A DNA stretch of 64,000 nucleotides from Gemmataceae bacterium. Lineage in GTDB: Bacteria; Planctomycetota; Planctomycetia; Gemmatales; Gemmataceae. The stretch lies in assembly GCA_009692005.1 (NCBI GenBank), contig SHZZ01000005.1:1-64000 (forward strand). Direction: 5' to 3'. Within the stretch, counting starts at the first letter, position 1. Each line of letters opens with the position of its first letter. A program made the position numbers and the translations under genes. Positions 58,048-64,000 of this stretch are shown here, piece after piece. Below the pieces are notes generated by a model. That model was given only the letters and a program-made list of their open reading frames with translations. It did not search any database and was not told where the DNA came from.

Positions 58048-59361
58048 TTACTTGGTTCCGCGGCCCAGGTAAGGTTCCAGTTCCGTCCCATTCGCCAGCC
58101 GGGTTATTAACGGCGTGGTCATCACGGTGGTCAACAGGGCCATCATCACCAGCATGCAAAAAACCGAATCGGGAATCACGCCTAGGTCCTTCCCCAGGTT
58201 GATGACGATCAATTCCATCAGGGCGCGGGTATTCATCAACACGCCGATGCAGGCGGCTTCCCTGGTGGAAAACCCGGTCCATCGAGCGGCCAGACCGCAG
58301 CCAGCGGCCTTGCCAACTATGGAAGCGCCAATGACCGCGGCGGCCACGCCCCACAATTGCCAGGTATCCAGCATGCCAATGTTGGTCCGCAGCCCCGTGT
58401 AGGCGAAGAAGATGGGCAAAAAGAAGGCGGTGACAAAATCCCGCAGCCGTTTTTGCACCGCCAGCCGGAGTTCCCTTTCATCGCATAAGCAGGCGCCAAA
58501 GAGAAAGGCGCCGAAGATGCCAAAGACCCCGATAAGATTTGTGGCAATTGCCGAGAGAAACAGCAAAGTCAAAATGACCGCCAGGCCAGTGACAGACAAT
58601 TCACCATCTTTGAGAAACCAGGGCAAAATTCTTTTAAGGCACGGTCTGACCAGAAAAACCATGGCCAGGCCGAAGGCCAAAGCGCTCAATACCATCACCA
58701 GCGATTGCTTCAATTCAAATCCGGTGGTGACGCCGGCTGCCACTCCGGCCAGAAGAATCCACCCCGCGGCATCATCGATGGCCGCCGCCGTGATCGTCAC
58801 CACAGCCAGACGCGTCCGCGGGATATCCCACTCGACCATCATTCTTCCCAGGATCGGCAGCGCCGTGATGGCCATGGCGGTGCCAAGGAAAAGGGCAAAG
58901 CCCCAGAAACTGGCGCCATTCCCATTATCTGGAAACACAACGGGGAAAAAACTCCAGGCCAGGAGCATCCCCAGGCCAAAAGGGACTACGATTCCTGACA
59001 GGGAAATGACCGCGGTCGAGGCGCCAACCACTTTTAAATGGCCGAAATCGAATTCCATTCCCACCAGGAAGAGAAGCAGCACGAGGCCGATCTGGCTGAT
59101 CACGGTGAAGATCCAGTGGAGTGTTCCCGGGGGAAGCCCTTGCACTTCGGGTTGAAAAATGGCTCGCGACCACTCGGGGAAAAAGAGGCCAAAAAAGCTG
59201 GGGCCAAGAAGCAGCCCAGCGGTGATTTCACCCACCACTTCCGGCTGGCCGAATTTGCGAAACAGCACGCCGACGGCGCGGGCCGCGATAATGATCAAGG
59301 CGAGCTGCCACAAGAGCGGCAACATAAGCTGCTCGACCTGCATGGAGGCAAACTCAATCAT
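58048..59361 (-). CDS. Cation:proton antiporter (CPA2 family)
   Basis: 437 aa with about twelve hydrophobic segments. Hallmarks: GEITAGLLLGPSFFG, LVGMEFDFGHL, and ITAAAIDDAAGWILLA (the ion-binding Asp pair). Start ATG 59361 overlaps the marR stop by 8 bases; later ATGs exist. Monovalent cation/proton antiport or glutathione-regulated K+ efflux type; no KTN domain, so not KefB/C-like with regulator. Last gene of the long minus-strand string. Confidence 0.93.
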   Translation of the reverse strand: MIEFASMQVEQLMLPLLWQLALIIIAARAVGVLFRKFGQPEVVGEITAGLLLGPSFFGLFFPEWSRAIFQPEVQGLPPGTLHWIFTVISQIGLVLLLFLVGMEFDFGHLKVVGASTAVISLSGIVVPFGLGMLLAWSFFPVVFPDNGNGASFWGFALFLGTAMAITALPILGRMMVEWDIPRTRLAVVTITAAAIDDAAGWILLAGVAAGVTTGFELKQSLVMVLSALAFGLAMVFLVRPCLKRILPWFLKDGELSVTGLAVILTLLFLSAIATNLIGVFGIFGAFLFGACLCDERELRLAVQKRLRDFVTAFFLPIFFAYTGLRTNIGMLDTWQLWGVAAAVIGASIVGKAAGCGLAARWTGFSTREAACIGVLMNTRALMELIVINLGKDLGVIPDSVFCMLVMMALLTTVMTTPLITRLANGTELEPYLGRGTK

Positions 59362-59866
59362 GGGTGCCCTTTTTGCCTGGCCTGGCTTTAGTTGGCGGTT
59401 TTTTCTCATGCGGGGCCCGGGCCAGGCGCAGCAGGCCGACCAGGGTTTTCAACCGGGCAGGGCTGAGGTGGCCCAGTTGCTGCAAGTTGCATTCCCGCAC
59501 CAGGGGGTCGAGCCGGGTCAACAAGTTCAACCCCGCGGCAGTAATGCCCACCAGGACGACACGGCGATTCTCCTCGGGCCTTTCACGGGCCACCAGCTTG
59601 CGTTTCTCCAGCCGGTCGATTAGCCGGGTGATGTCCGGTGCCCGGGAGACGAGTTGCCCGGCCAGCGCCAGGGTATGGAGTTTCCCGGGGTGGTTGCGGC
59701 GGAGAAGGCGCAAGGCGTTGTACTGTTGGGCCGAGATATCAAAGGGTGAAAAGAGGGCGTCCTCGAGTGCCTTGAGGGTGTCATAAGCGCGCCAGAGGTT
59801 GAGAAAGGCCTCCTGCTGGGGAGAGTCGAAGCGGCTGGCTGGGCGAGCTTGGCTGGCGGGCGGCAT
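59354..59866 (-). CDS. MarR-family transcriptional regulator
   Basis: 170 aa winged-helix regulator. NLWRAYDTLKALEDALF, FDISAQQYNALRLLRRN, SRAPDITRLIDRLEKRKLVARER (recognition helix and wing), and NLLTRLDPLVRECN. AGGAGGA precedes its ATG, and the 42-base palindrome starts inside that ribosome site. It probably controls itself and the downstream antiporter, which overlaps it. The C-terminal tail (PHEKKPPTKARPGKKG) is basic. Confidence 0.92.
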   Translation of the reverse strand: MPPASQARPASRFDSPQQEAFLNLWRAYDTLKALEDALFSPFDISAQQYNALRLLRRNHPGKLHTLALAGQLVSRAPDITRLIDRLEKRKLVARERPEENRRVVLVGITAAGLNLLTRLDPLVRECNLQQLGHLSPARLKTLVGLLRLARAPHEKKPPTKARPGKKGTHD

Positions 59867-59877
59867 GGCGCATCCTC

Positions 59878-59919
59878 CTGGTTAAACAATAGTTGTTTTA
59901 ACAACTATTGTTTAACCAG
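59878..59919. promoter_or_regulatory. Palindromic operator upstream of marR
   Basis: Two 20-base arms (59878-59897 and 59900-59919) are perfect inverted copies around a central TT; the core reads AGTTGTT-TT-AACAACT, a typical MarR-box shape. It begins in the ribosome-binding site of marR and ends inside the preceding gene, supplying its last six codons and stop. Autorepression by the MarR protein is likely. The RNA could also form a long hairpin, but no T-run follows, so a terminator role is less likely. Confidence 0.75.
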
Positions 59920-60278
59920 GACAGGGCAAGTTGCGGCAAAGTAGCGGCAAATCGGCTGCGCGGCAGCACCGGCGTGCAACCCGCCTCACGCGCCCTTTGC
60001 AAGCTTTCCACATCCACATGCGATCCAAACCCCAGGACCGAAACCCCCGCCCCGGCTACCTCGCGCCACTTTTCCATGATGCCAACCAGCGACTCCCCCG
60101 CCGTGTCGAGGTCTATGGCCGCCCCCACCACACCGGCGGTTGCCGCCAATTCCAGAAATTTCTCCCCCGTCTTCACTTGACGGCAGACGCCTCCCAGGGC
60201 GCGCACTTCACCGCCAATCCGGCTGCCAAACATCAAGTCATCGCATAGCACCAATACCGTTTTTTTCACTTCCTCCAT
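59898..60278 (-). CDS. Receiver-like (pseudo-receiver) protein
   Basis: 126 aa from ATG 60278 (AAAGGA 8 bases upstream). Alternating strand/helix pattern like CheY: KTVLVLCDDLMFGSRIG with an acidic pair, VGAAIDLDTAGES in the phospho-acceptor region, VSVLGFGSH and PVLPRSRF, where the conserved Lys before Pro is replaced by Arg-context. So it may be a degenerate receiver. Its last codons (W L N N S C stop) are part of the palindrome. Between the Nudix gene and marR. Confidence 0.65.
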   Translation of the reverse strand: MEEVKKTVLVLCDDLMFGSRIGGEVRALGGVCRQVKTGEKFLELAATAGVVGAAIDLDTAGESLVGIMEKWREVAGAGVSVLGFGSHVDVESLQRAREAGCTPVLPRSRFAATLPQLALSWLNNSC

Positions 60279-60289
60279 GACATTCCTTT

Positions 60290-60868
60290 CTAACTGATCT
60301 TGCCAAGCCTTTGGAACATGTGCAGCGTTGCCCACAACTTGGCGTCGATGGGCAAGCCGGGATTATCACACAGGGCGCAAACTCCGGCGAAATCGAGGAG
60401 CACCACTTCAATATCCTCGGTAGCTTCGTTCGCCGCCACCGAGCCCTTCACTTTTTTCACATCGGCGTAAACTAGCGCCACCGCTTCATCGGTCAGGCCC
60501 ATGGAGGAATGCAAGGGTGAAGTCACTTTCCTGATACGGCTGATATGAAGACCGGTTTCCTCGATCATTTCACGGCGCACCGCGCTTTCGACAGACTCCC
60601 CCTCATCCACCAGGCCGGCGGGAAAGCCATAGGTATACCCGCCCACGGGGACGCGGAATTCCTTGATGACCACCAGCCGGTTGGCCAGCCCCTTCTCCTT
60701 GAGAACGGGAACAATGATCACGGCTTCAGGTCCGGCCGCTCCCTTGGATGTCTGCTTCTTTCGCGAGGCGTAGACCCACTGACCCCGGTGGCCGTTGTGG
60801 GAATACTCCGCCCGATAGAGGTTGAGCCACTTTTCACGCGTCAGGGAAACGGTCTTGTGCAGTTTCAC
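60290..60868 (-). CDS. Nudix hydrolase
   Basis: 192 aa from a GTG start (GTG 60868). Nudix box GLVDEGESVESAVRREMIEETGL is complete (GX5EX7REUXEEXGU). The preceding EFRVPVGGYTYGFPAG and position of a Pro 15 or so residues later suggest ADP-ribose/ADP-sugar pyrophosphatase type. Substrate not confirmed. Gaps to its neighbours are 12 bases, so cotranscribed. Confidence 0.9.
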   Translation of the reverse strand: MKLHKTVSLTREKWLNLYRAEYSHNGHRGQWVYASRKKQTSKGAAGPEAVIIVPVLKEKGLANRLVVIKEFRVPVGGYTYGFPAGLVDEGESVESAVRREMIEETGLHISRIRKVTSPLHSSMGLTDEAVALVYADVKKVKGSVAANEATEDIEVVLLDFAGVCALCDNPGLPIDAKLWATLHMFQRLGKIS

Positions 60869-60880
60869 AGTTAACTCCAG

Positions 60881-61228
60881 TTAAATGGCTTCCGGCCCGC
60901 GCTCGCCGGTGCGGATCCGGATGCAGTCTTCCAGGGGCAGGATAAAAATCTTGCCGTCGCCAATCCTGCCTTCCGGCCCGGTTCGCCCCGCTTCCATGAT
61001 GGCTTTCACCGTGGGCTCGACAAAGTCTTCATTGACGGCGATTTGCATCTGCACCTTGGGCAGCAATTGCACCGTCAACTCATGCCCGCGATAAACTTCC
61101 GTGTGCCCTTTCTGTCGGCCGAACCCTTGCACATCGACAATTGTCAGGCGAAAGACCTCCACCTTGTTAAGAGCTTCCTTCACAGCTTCCAGCTTGGAAG
61201 GCTGGATAATCGCCAGGATCAATTTCAT
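60881..61228 (-). CDS. glnB: P-II family nitrogen regulatory protein, non-standard T-loop
   Basis: 115 aa, the trimeric P-II signal protein. IDVQGFGRQKGHTEVYRG, LLPKVQMQI and GKIFILPLEDCIRIRTGERG are family signatures. In the T-loop the usual uridylylation site Tyr51 (RGAEY) is Leu (RGHEL), and the stretch before IGDGK has three extra residues (GPEGR). So it can bind ATP/2-oxoglutarate but not be uridylylated at that site. It is 23 bases after fhcA in a fhc transcript, not next to amtB or glnA. Confidence 0.9.
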   Translation of the reverse strand: MKLILAIIQPSKLEAVKEALNKVEVFRLTIVDVQGFGRQKGHTEVYRGHELTVQLLPKVQMQIAVNEDFVEPTVKAIMEAGRTGPEGRIGDGKIFILPLEDCIRIRTGERGPEAI

Positions 61229-61251
61229 GCGGATTTCTCCAGACCGGCGGG

Positions 61252-62916
61252 TCAGGACCGGCTGCCGCAGGAGGAACGAACTCCTCCCCCGGCCAGATAT
61301 TCCTCGCCCACAGGGTAATTGGCGAATTGAATGGTGTAGAACGATTCAAACCATTTTTGAATATCGTTCACCCCAGCGGAGTCGAATTCGGGGTGGACAT
61401 AATAAGTTCTGCCACCCTCGGCCTCGCGGATTTCCCCCTGGTCCACCACCACCACACCGTCCTTGATCACCTTCCAGGGCATTTCAAACATGGCGCGAAT
61501 GTCGGCAGATTCATTGTAAATGGTAATGTCGGCGTCGGCGCCCGGACCCAGGTGACCTTTGTTTTTTAATCCCAGGCAGCGCGCGGGGCCCGCTCGCGTG
61601 ATGATGGCGATTTCCTCCAGCGAATATTCCCGGTCGAGATCCCACAACTGGCTCCGCTCCAACACGCGGGGGTTCACTCGTTTCAAAACTTCCCGACGGC
61701 AATTTCTGTCCATCAGCAGCTGAATGATCTGCGGGTAAGCCAGGAACGACCCGCCATTCGGATGGTCGGTGCTCATGGCCACGCGCCATGGGTCCTTCAC
61801 CAAGAGGTACCATTCCAGCCCGATGGCCCATTGCAAGGCGTTAACAAAACTTTTCTCGCGGTAAGTGACCGGGACAATGCCGCAGCCGGCTTCCATTTCG
61901 GTGTCGGCATTGGTCCACTTGCCACCGGTTACCTTGTGCAGATAGTAGCCAAGGGGCCCGTCACCGGTCATGGAAGTGGTGTTGCCAAAGAGGACCTGCC
62001 CGACATCGACGGTCAGATTGGGGTGGTCATTGACATACTCTGCAAGTTCTAGAGTCTTGGAGGAAAACAGATCCTGGCGATCGGGTTCGCCTCCATAGCT
62101 GTGGAATTGCACATGGGTGAGATGAGCGCGGCGGCCTTCCAGCGCTTCCATGGTGGCCAGGGTGGTGCGCCAATTCCCGGGCAGGCCGAGGTTATTGCAA
62201 TGGACATGGACCGGGTGTGGCAATTCCAGGTCCATGGCGGTCTGGGCGAGCCCCTGAATAATTTGTCTGGGAGTGCAGGAGAAATGTCCAACCTGTTCGT
62301 CCAGTTCGTGGATATTCCCGCCTCCGCTCTTCCACACTTCCACCCCGCCGGGGTTCACCAGCTTGATGGCGTATCCCTTGGATGCCTGCAGCAGCCAGGC
62401 GGTAAAGTCGCGAAGCCGACCCGGCTCATTCGCCGCAATTTGCTTCAAGGCGTAGTGATTATTTCCCATCAGAACATAAAAGCCCTTGTCCAACAGGGGG
62501 GTGTCTTGCAGTTCTTCGTGGGCATGACGCGCACCCAGAGGAGGGACGGCAGCATCAAAGGCGGTGGTGTAGCCAAGCCCGGCGTAAAGGTAGCCGGTTG
62601 CGAAAGTGCTGGGCACGCTACCGCCGGTGCCGGAACGGGTGAGAAGAGTCCGTTGCACGGGGCGGGCATTGCGCTTGTCCTCGGGGCGCATTTTTCGCGC
62701 CAGGTTCACCTTGGGCCCGGCGATGTGGCAATGCATATCCACACCCCCGGCCATGATGAGCCTGCCTGAAGCGTCGATTACTTTGTCCGGGGTTTCCTCG
62801 GGGTTGGCGGGCTTCGCGATGATTACCCCATCGCGGATCCATAGGTCAAGGACTTCGCCCTTTATCCCGTGCACCGGATCAACTACTTTTCCGCCGCTGA
62901 TTTTCAGCAGTGTCAT
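61252..62916 (-). CDS. fhcA: Formyltransferase/hydrolase complex subunit A
   Basis: 554 aa amidohydrolase-fold homologue of formylmethanofuran dehydrogenase subunit A. Part of the FhcABCD complex, which moves formyl from H4MPT via a methanofuran analogue and hydrolyses it to formate. Metal site HCH in VDMHCHIAGPKVN, HVHCNNLG, THVQFHSYGGEP, and the late Asp in MSTDHPNGGSF. The substrate lobe FATGYLYAGLGYTTAFDAAV and NNHYALKQIAANEP match subunit A. fhcB is 18 bases upstream; C and D subunits, normally nearby, are beyond the window or elsewhere. Confidence 0.93.
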   Translation of the reverse strand: MTLLKISGGKVVDPVHGIKGEVLDLWIRDGVIIAKPANPEETPDKVIDASGRLIMAGGVDMHCHIAGPKVNLARKMRPEDKRNARPVQRTLLTRSGTGGSVPSTFATGYLYAGLGYTTAFDAAVPPLGARHAHEELQDTPLLDKGFYVLMGNNHYALKQIAANEPGRLRDFTAWLLQASKGYAIKLVNPGGVEVWKSGGGNIHELDEQVGHFSCTPRQIIQGLAQTAMDLELPHPVHVHCNNLGLPGNWRTTLATMEALEGRRAHLTHVQFHSYGGEPDRQDLFSSKTLELAEYVNDHPNLTVDVGQVLFGNTTSMTGDGPLGYYLHKVTGGKWTNADTEMEAGCGIVPVTYREKSFVNALQWAIGLEWYLLVKDPWRVAMSTDHPNGGSFLAYPQIIQLLMDRNCRREVLKRVNPRVLERSQLWDLDREYSLEEIAIITRAGPARCLGLKNKGHLGPGADADITIYNESADIRAMFEMPWKVIKDGVVVVDQGEIREAEGGRTYYVHPEFDSAGVNDIQKWFESFYTIQFANYPVGEEYLAGGGVRSSCGSRS

Positions 62917-62934
62917 ACTTGCATCCCAATTGGC

Positions 62935-64000
62935 TTAGCGGGCCGCCGCGCTGGCCCGTTGCAGAGCGCGCACGCGCTTTTCAATCCCGCGAAGAACCAA
63001 TTCGTCGCTGGGGTGAGGAGAATCAAAGGCAGCCCGAAGGGGAATGGGAACATCATCCATGCGGTAAACGGTCCCCGGCACATTGATGCCATAGGTGGCT
63101 GTGGTAAAGGCAACTGTGGCGGCAGCAGTAGTGGCGGTTTCCTTGGGGTCGAGGGCAATATAAGGAATGGTGCCAAGGTGATCCCGCGCCGCTTGCGAAA
63201 AATTACCCATAGGGTCAGAAGCGATAATCATGGCGGCATCGGCTTCCTTTCGAGCCAGGGTGTCCGTGGTGGTGAACTCGCCCGGATTAAAGCGGGGAAA
63301 GCCCTTTCCAAGGTGAACGCCAAACGGGTAGCCAGTCTGCCAGCTCACGACATTGTCGGCGCCGGTGACATTCCCATGCCCGCGCATGGGCGCGGCGTAA
63401 AAGCGCGTGAAATCGTTGAGATCCCGGGTCAGCGCCAGCGCCGCTTCCACATTCAGATGTTTTCCCCTTGTCATGGAAAGGCCCATGCCGAAAAACAGCA
63501 CGCCGAACTTGCAGGACTTCATTTTCCCGGCCAGATCTTCGAGCTGTTGCAATGACACGCCGGTATCGGCCAAATCGGCCGGGTCGAGTTTCAAACCTTT
63601 GACCAGGGCGCGAAGGACCCACAAGACCTCGAAATCCATGCGCGGTCGGATTTGCAGAAAGATGTCCGCAGCGGGAGCGCTCTTGGTTTTTCTCACATCC
63701 ACCAACACCACGGTGCGGTCTTTCCGGCCTCTGGGAACGAACAACCCCTTGGGCATGGTGGAATACCGGGTCCAGTGGCGCGGATGCGATTCCGCCGGGT
63801 TGCAACCCCAAAAGATTACCAGGTCGGCGCGGTTTTTCACCTCGCCCAAAGAGCAGGTGACCTCCCCCACACCTTGAAAGGCCATCCCGGACGGACCATG
63901 GCAAACGGAGGTGGTGGTGTCGATGCAGGCGCCAACCCAGTCGGCAATGGCAACTGCAACTCGCTGGGCCTCGCAGGTGGTGTCGGAAAGGCCGTAAACA
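62935..64000 (-). CDS. fhcB: Formyltransferase/hydrolase complex subunit B (partial)
   Basis: The 5' end lies outside the window; about 355 residues are visible. Molybdopterin-oxidoreductase-like homologue of FwdB/FmdB: the segment YGLSDTTCEAQRVAVAIADW, TSVCHGPSGMAFQG, VIFWGCNPAESHPRHWTRY, and MRGHGNVTGADNVVSWQTGY. The Cys in SVCHGPSG is in the region of the archaeal active-site Cys/Sec, although bacterial FhcB is reported not to carry the metal cofactor, so its role is best called structural until tested. Continues beyond 64000. Confidence 0.9.
   Translation of the reverse strand, partial: VYGLSDTTCEAQRVAVAIADWVGACIDTTTSVCHGPSGMAFQGVGEVTCSLGEVKNRADLVIFWGCNPAESHPRHWTRYSTMPKGLFVPRGRKDRTVVLVDVRKTKSAPAADIFLQIRPRMDFEVLWVLRALVKGLKLDPADLADTGVSLQQLEDLAGKMKSCKFGVLFFGMGLSMTRGKHLNVEAALALTRDLNDFTRFYAAPMRGHGNVTGADNVVSWQTGYPFGVHLGKGFPRFNPGEFTTTDTLARKEADAAMIIASDPMGNFSQAARDHLGTIPYIALDPKETATTAAATVAFTTATYGINVPGTVYRMDDVPIPLRAAFDSPHPSDELVLRGIEKRVRALQRASAAAR

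Follow-up and report, generated by a model that had tools for sequence, protein, structure and literature searches.

A long palindrome in front of marR as a probable MarR operator that overlaps the tail of a receiver-like gene in a Gemmataceae bacterium

What does a long perfect palindrome do when it covers both the end of one gene and part of the ribosome site of the next? This question is raised by the 64,000-nucleotide stretch analyzed here (the window), which is positions 1 to 64,000 of contig SHZZ01000005.1 of a Gemmataceae bacterium with a genome of 4.19 Mb in 99 contigs. Its minus strand carries a closely spaced run of genes for a PII protein, a Nudix hydrolase, a receiver-like protein, a MarR regulator, and an antiporter, and the palindrome lies where the receiver-like gene meets marR. 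The genes around it are as follows.

58048..59409, minus strand: CPA2-type cation/proton antiporter gene (PF00999), downstream of marR and its probable target
59354..59866, minus strand: marR (PF01047), ATG at 59866, encoding the candidate binder of the palindrome site
59898..60278, minus strand: degenerate receiver-like gene; the reading frame is open to 60335, and the ATG at 60278 is preferred
60290..60868, minus strand: Nudix hydrolase gene, tightly spaced, upstream in the same run

The antiporter frame has a second in-frame ATG at 59361 as a possible start. The Nudix hydrolase gene is also present in all three loci examined in the genus labeled g20 here. Farther upstream, positions 60881 to 63885 hold a gene for formylmethanofuran dehydrogenase subunit A (TIGR03121) and the PII protein gene, in the same same-strand run.

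The preliminary description of this DNA reported arms of 20 nucleotides at 59878 to 59919. The perfect match and the 2-base center were as described, but the repeat was longer, with two more bases on each side: the arms at 59876 to 59897 and 59900 to 59921 are 22 nucleotides each and 100% complementary. Such arms are far beyond chance. The runner-up among perfect inverted repeats in the window (arms of at least 10, spacers of 0 to 8) has 12-nucleotide arms, and in 20 first-order Markov surrogates of the window the longest arm was 8 to 10. A dispersed repeat element was considered and rejected, as a 16-base arm without mismatch is unique to this place in its own genome. The sites within and next to the palindrome are listed below.

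59874..59879, minus strand: AGGAGG, ribosome site of marR, with 4 of its 6 bases in the palindrome
59876..59921, unstranded: palindrome with 22-nucleotide arms and a 2-nucleotide center, the arm exceeding the next in the window by 10 nucleotides
59886..59889, minus strand: third half-site TTGT, N3 away from the core box toward marR, recognized by column conservation in 57 relatives
59886..59914, minus strand: candidate weak promoter-like pair inside the palindrome (8/12), TAAACA (59914-59909), 17 bp, TATTGT (59891-59886)
59890..59907, unstranded: core box TAGTTGTT-AA-AACAACTA, which contains TTGT-N4-ACAA and is the part kept in relatives
59898..59900, minus strand: stop codon TAA of the receiver-like gene, in the N4 spacer of the box
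59901..59921, minus strand: last seven codons of the receiver-like gene (S W L N N S C), NNSC lying in the box

Both gene overlaps noted in the preliminary description were borne out. Since AGGAGG occupies 59879 to 59874, four of its bases, AGGA, fall inside the left arm. At the other end, the right arm reads TCC TGG TTA AAC AAT AGT TGT on the minus strand, closing the receiver-like gene with its TAA at the center of the palindrome. The third half-site is mirrored by ACAA at 59908 to 59911 (minus strand).

The regulator encoded next to the site belongs to the MarR family, scoring 38.7 bits against PF01047 (cut-off, 24.6). It has a close solved homologue in PDB entry 3u2r, which we take to come from Planctomyces limnophilus; the match covers residues 7 to 155 (E = 2.8e-49), and the next match is at 1.6e-7. 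A literature search for 3u2r found no paper. HpaR-, SlyA-, and OhrR-type regulators share the winged-helix MarR domain with it, but their family scores were weak: none of the NCBIfam equivalogs for HpaR, SlyA, OhrR, and MarR reached its cut-off, the best being HpaR with 47.6 bits versus 121.2.

To see what part of the palindrome is kept, marR homologues were collected from 41 loci on named contigs and from 99 related genomes, 81 of which matched at E ≤ 0.001 (the best 30 marR loci of these genomes plus more taken by place). Removal of nine duplicates left 86 distinct marR loci. A box pattern, TTGT-N4-ACAA-N3-TTGT, with 12 fixed positions, all present in the window, was defined after inspection of the window and its relatives, and the flanking and shuffle controls therefore carry the weight. 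As a class, MarR operators are pseudo-palindromes of about 16 to 20 bp in front of marR that are conserved with the orthologous regulator, and this is what was found: where the flank sufficed (78 loci), the box preceded marR with at most 2 mismatches in 60, versus 1/78 at 700 bp further upstream and 1/78 at 400 bp downstream. At the stricter level of 1 mismatch, 54 of the 86 loci had it within 150 bp upstream, where mononucleotide shuffles lead one to expect 0.05. No recognizable box at 2 mismatches or fewer was seen in the remaining 18 of the 78 loci.

In contrast to the box, the full palindrome of 42 to 46 bp was found in no relative, so that the longer repeat described at the outset does not hold as the conserved unit; the central box and the third half-site are the conserved part. 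Column conservation was read from 57 loci with the box, more than 45% identity, and no receiver gene in front of marR. Constancy is highest in GT, AC-AA, and T-GT of the three half-sites and in an AC at +23/+24, the latter in keeping with a second box displaced by 15 bp. This bears on the earlier proposal that two dimers bind: relatives do have an overlapping, half-conserved second box at the 15-bp shift, but in the window only half of it is present on each side.

These data indicate that the site is very probably an operator of the adjacent MarR, judging from the box kept at marR orthologues and at a second probable regulon gene (below). A regulator other than the neighboring MarR might be the one that reads the site, and MarR binding here is indeed a prediction only; against this, the box accompanies marR orthologues and a single unlinked gene, itself often next to marR, and we regard such a regulator as very improbable. 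A MarR dimer would most likely grip TTGT-N4-ACAA within 59890 to 59907, with the extra half-site 3 bp off.

How bound MarR could act is suggested by the promoters of the relatives. A sigma70-like promoter (at least 9/12) lies on the box in 34 of the 57 relatives without a receiver gene in front, and in all 34 the -35 hexamer starts at box position +5 and is followed by a 17-bp spacer. It is this fixed position of the -35 hexamer, rather than the count, that makes the argument. In many relatives the box thus covers the -35 region and spacer of the marR promoter, and MarR bound there would therefore be expected to repress by blocking RNA polymerase.

Of the receiver-linked loci, four came through the filter on box and identity (the window, two of g20, and one of the group labeled g26), and none of them had a promoter at 9/12 or better. 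The promoter scan of the window region gave none at threshold (shuffles give 0.5). The usual place of the -10 hexamer in relatives, 59876 to 59871, is overlapped by AGGAGG, the receiver gene ends in the box, and the site sits within the closely spaced same-strand gene run. The weak pair TAAACA-17-TATTGT lies 15 bp upstream of the usual promoter place and below the 9/12 threshold. Since the window has no promoter at threshold, we infer the mode of repression at this copy: MarR may act on this weak shifted promoter or as a roadblock to transcription from upstream. Transcriptional roadblocks are among the subjects of PMC4132739 and PMC10310618.

We then considered the degenerate receiver-like gene. 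At E ≤ 1, PF00072 matched 16 of 23 aligned family members (best, 4.9e-7), and the window member had no match. In a profile search against solved chains, the top match was a designed TIM barrel over a short stretch (3.5e-9), followed mostly by receivers (best, 1.2e-5). A receiver-like gene stands in front of marR in 12 of the 86 loci. In the family set, its stop lies inside the box in the window, in 7/7 genomes of g20, and in 3/3 genomes of another genus, g23. The half-site and spacer are filled by TGT-TAA-A in the window, TGT-TAG-A in g20, and TGT-TGA-A in g23, so each genus uses a different stop; in the third g23 genome, the second half of the box is changed. An exact-pattern search of 95 family genomes hit 14 places (reversed control, 2), of which 10 were at a receiver-marR junction, including all seven of g20; the other four lie away from marR, one of them, by eye, inside a coding region (L138). 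In the linked loci of g26 and of a further group, g2, a box-like stretch or a full box follows the receiver stop. As a separate observation, the three g15 loci (L122, L123, and L124) have a receiver adjoining marR without a box; the tail there is GCCS, and the stop overlaps a possible marR ATG.

The preliminary description proposed that the shared DNA constrains the protein tail and suggested comparing palindrome and codons in homologues. In that comparison the outcome named as refuting, codons kept without the palindrome, did not occur for the core: the core box and its codons were kept together, and the stop type changed within the spacer. Receivers were compared as the best 30 matches plus the marR-linked ones, with matches in 83 of 95 family genomes. 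A Cys codon directly before the stop was found in 11/11 receivers with the overlap versus 0/26 readable ones without it; the latter derive from 28 non-overlap receivers (23 unlinked and 5 linked, 0/28 with Cys-stop) by omission of L098 and L103, in which the frame is masked or shifted. Throughout g20 (7/7) the end is AAC AAT AGT TGT with stop TAG, and the constancy extends 8 bases beyond it. Just outside the box, the codon differs in every g20 genome, with 7 codons for 6 residues. It is this abrupt boundary, together with the continuation into noncoding DNA, that we find telling in the g20 sequences. Between the window and g20, codons at same-residue sites are identical in 39 to 49% of cases outside the tail and in 4/4 within it.

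A pure coding coincidence, in which the receiver protein itself needs NNSC and the palindrome is a by-product, has some points in its favor: the arm encodes W-L, a motif that the protein family conserves (of 20 aligned homologues that have a residue at the W position, 18 have W), and elsewhere in the g20 receiver gene the codon, too, is constant at 36 of 86 degenerate constant residues, so that four constant codons in a row are not by themselves rare. It was rejected nonetheless on the Cys-stop counts, the identity of AAC AAT AGT TGT between the window and g20, and codon usage, as TTA (80/1870), AGT (62/918), and TGT (36/214) are minority codons among the 42 open reading frames of the window. 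Moreover, the box stands before marR and the FAD gene described below in many genomes without a receiver gene there. We give this reading hardly any credence. The protein tail, then, appears to be under constraint from the operator: as the stop codon falls in the N4 spacer, the half-site would dictate the last receiver codons. A conserved MarR operator whose coding overlap shapes the tail of the receiver-like protein is very probable from these comparisons.

Whether the overlap arose once was approached with two trees. In the MarR tree, overlap occurs in two clades split by supported branches, with a bootstrap that had not settled; rows dropped or to be dropped are the distant Bacteroidota L046 and L047 and five whose translated stretch contains a stop. 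The receiver tree, from which duplicates, L098, and L103 are dropped or to be dropped, is compatible with a single origin.

A gene for an FAD-dependent oxidoreductase is among the nearest open reading frames of marR in at least 33 of the 86 loci (once upstream on the other strand), and the antiporter is near marR in at least 19 of 86; these are lower bounds, because the flank of many loci extends to just 1.5 kb. The models that come closest to the oxidoreductase are those of CmlS flavin halogenase and geranylgeranyl-reductase, and it stays under the cut-off of each. In the genome of the window the FAD gene is unlinked, on contig C31 (11954-13238), and a box with 1 mismatch stands 40 bp ahead of its start; this site shares TATTGT with the weak pair of the window. 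Of 30 FAD loci, 28 had readable upstream DNA, and 23 of these had no marR within 1.5 kb; left out were L167, which was truncated, and L171, whose match begins at the edge of its locus. Allowing at most 4 mismatches of 20 fixed positions, we found the box at 12 of these 23 unlinked genes versus 1/1450 mononucleotide shuffles. The 12 genes belong to the window genome, five g20, three g15, and two g23 genomes, and G021, and every readable FAD locus of g20, g15, and g23 had the box. In g15, whose receiver-marR junction has none, the box of the FAD gene elsewhere in the genome carries 3 to 4 mismatches (L158-L160).

At the same threshold, 11 of the 23 unlinked FAD genes had no box. Three of the genomes concerned (G004, G006, and G056) have no close marR orthologue, and G043 has a distant one (46%) with an internal stop. 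A close orthologue is present in G008, G025, and G059, where the FAD upstream DNA shows 5 to 7 mismatches. The boxless gene of G050 is a second copy, and G103, G113, and G125 were outside the marR homologue search. Within the window's own genome, box matches at 3 mismatches are noise (12 per strand versus 55 in the reversed control).

The FAD gene thus looks, from its upstream sequence, like a regulon member kept though apart from marR, and a candidate regulon would comprise marR, the antiporter, and the FAD-dependent oxidoreductase. We consider it very likely that the palindrome site is the operator of the neighboring MarR: the bound protein would repress marR together with the antiporter gene that follows, and most likely also the unlinked FAD-dependent oxidoreductase gene with the same box, and a ligand would release it.

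The outer arms of the palindrome call for another explanation, as among the receiver-marR junctions compared, only the window has the full repeat. On the coding side, the outer arm contains TGG TTA, codons of the Trp-Leu conserved in the receiver family (Trp in 18/20 and Leu in 13/19 homologues with a residue there). Because of this conservation, the coding side probably came first, and the noncoding side would mirror the Trp-Leu codons. Template-switch correction of an imperfect palindrome would yield such mirroring. Template switching at quasipalindromes is treated, e.g., in PMC7202029. Since they leave the second MarR box no better, the outer arms are in our view a by-product and not a site for a second dimer.

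The same DNA might, however, act as RNA. In the window, the transcript folds into a 21-bp hairpin (-34.9 kcal/mol; z, -7.6), the stem of which includes AGGA of AGGAGG and the loop of which holds the stop codon. With genes closely spaced on one strand, a readthrough transcript could carry this hairpin with the marR ribosome site at its base, coupling marR translation to that of the receiver gene, possibly in addition to the operator. Still, a perfect DNA palindrome of that length always folds in this way, and where the box coincides with a promoter, as it does in many relatives, it does not have to be part of any transcript. Two relatives' junctions, one of g20 and one of g23, fold no better than shuffles (z, -0.75 and -0.41), while their DNA box is kept. 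A conserved function of the RNA hairpin was rejected for its absence from these two junctions, and we consider translational coupling in the window unlikely, though worth keeping in mind.

An intrinsic terminator of the receiver gene was rejected as well. The strong hairpin at the stop codon would suit it, but the stem is AT rich, no T run follows on the coding strand, and same-strand genes lie directly downstream; the terminator scan did not list the site, which lacks the GC-containing stem with T run of this class. As the two folded relatives also keep the box and not the hairpin, the chance of a terminator is negligible. A broader proposal joins several of these elements, with the 46-bp sequence working on three levels: as MarR operator, as an obligatory C-terminus of the receiver-like protein, and, in this species, as a stop-loop hairpin hiding part of the marR ribosome site so that receiver translation gates the repressor, the outer arms having come from template-switch copying of the Trp-Leu codons. 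Taken as a whole, we hold this proposal to be distinctly improbable.

Seen as the operator of its neighboring MarR, the site can be compared with marO of Escherichia coli, where the palindrome TTGC-N4-GCAA occurs at two separated sites, one on the promoter and one near the marR ribosome site. The regulators belong to the same family, and TTGT-N4-ACAA has the same half-site order and spacing. In contrast to marO, the window has a single core box plus an extra half-site of a box shifted by 15 bp, and the upstream gene ends in the box; marO is not known to have a coding overlap. Operators that overlap the end of an upstream gene, where one stretch of DNA serves regulation and coding, are known. 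What differs here is that the stop codon falls in the N4 spacer, with another stop in each of three genera. The kind of site is thus known, and the arrangement is an unusual variant; a literature search over titles and the openings of abstracts returned nothing describing it. It offers a clean natural example of a regulatory DNA site that appears to take precedence over protein sequence, the site of one protein writing the tail of another, and this is seen in two MarR clades that lie apart and with three stop codons. For a MarR group that is widespread in planctomycetes and has a solved structure, it also supplies an operator open to testing and a small set of candidate regulon genes.

Two further features of the marR loci are worth recording. 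In ten of them (L014, L017, L020, L035-L039, L045, and L049) the box is kept, and another gene family follows marR in place of the FAD gene, a PQQ-type beta-propeller by our reading of the sequence; none of the ten reaches 9/12 for a promoter. Two loci on contigs labeled Armatimonadota (L016 and L023) have marR, box, promoter, FAD gene, and antiporter arranged as in planctomycetes, possibly through transfer or mis-binning.
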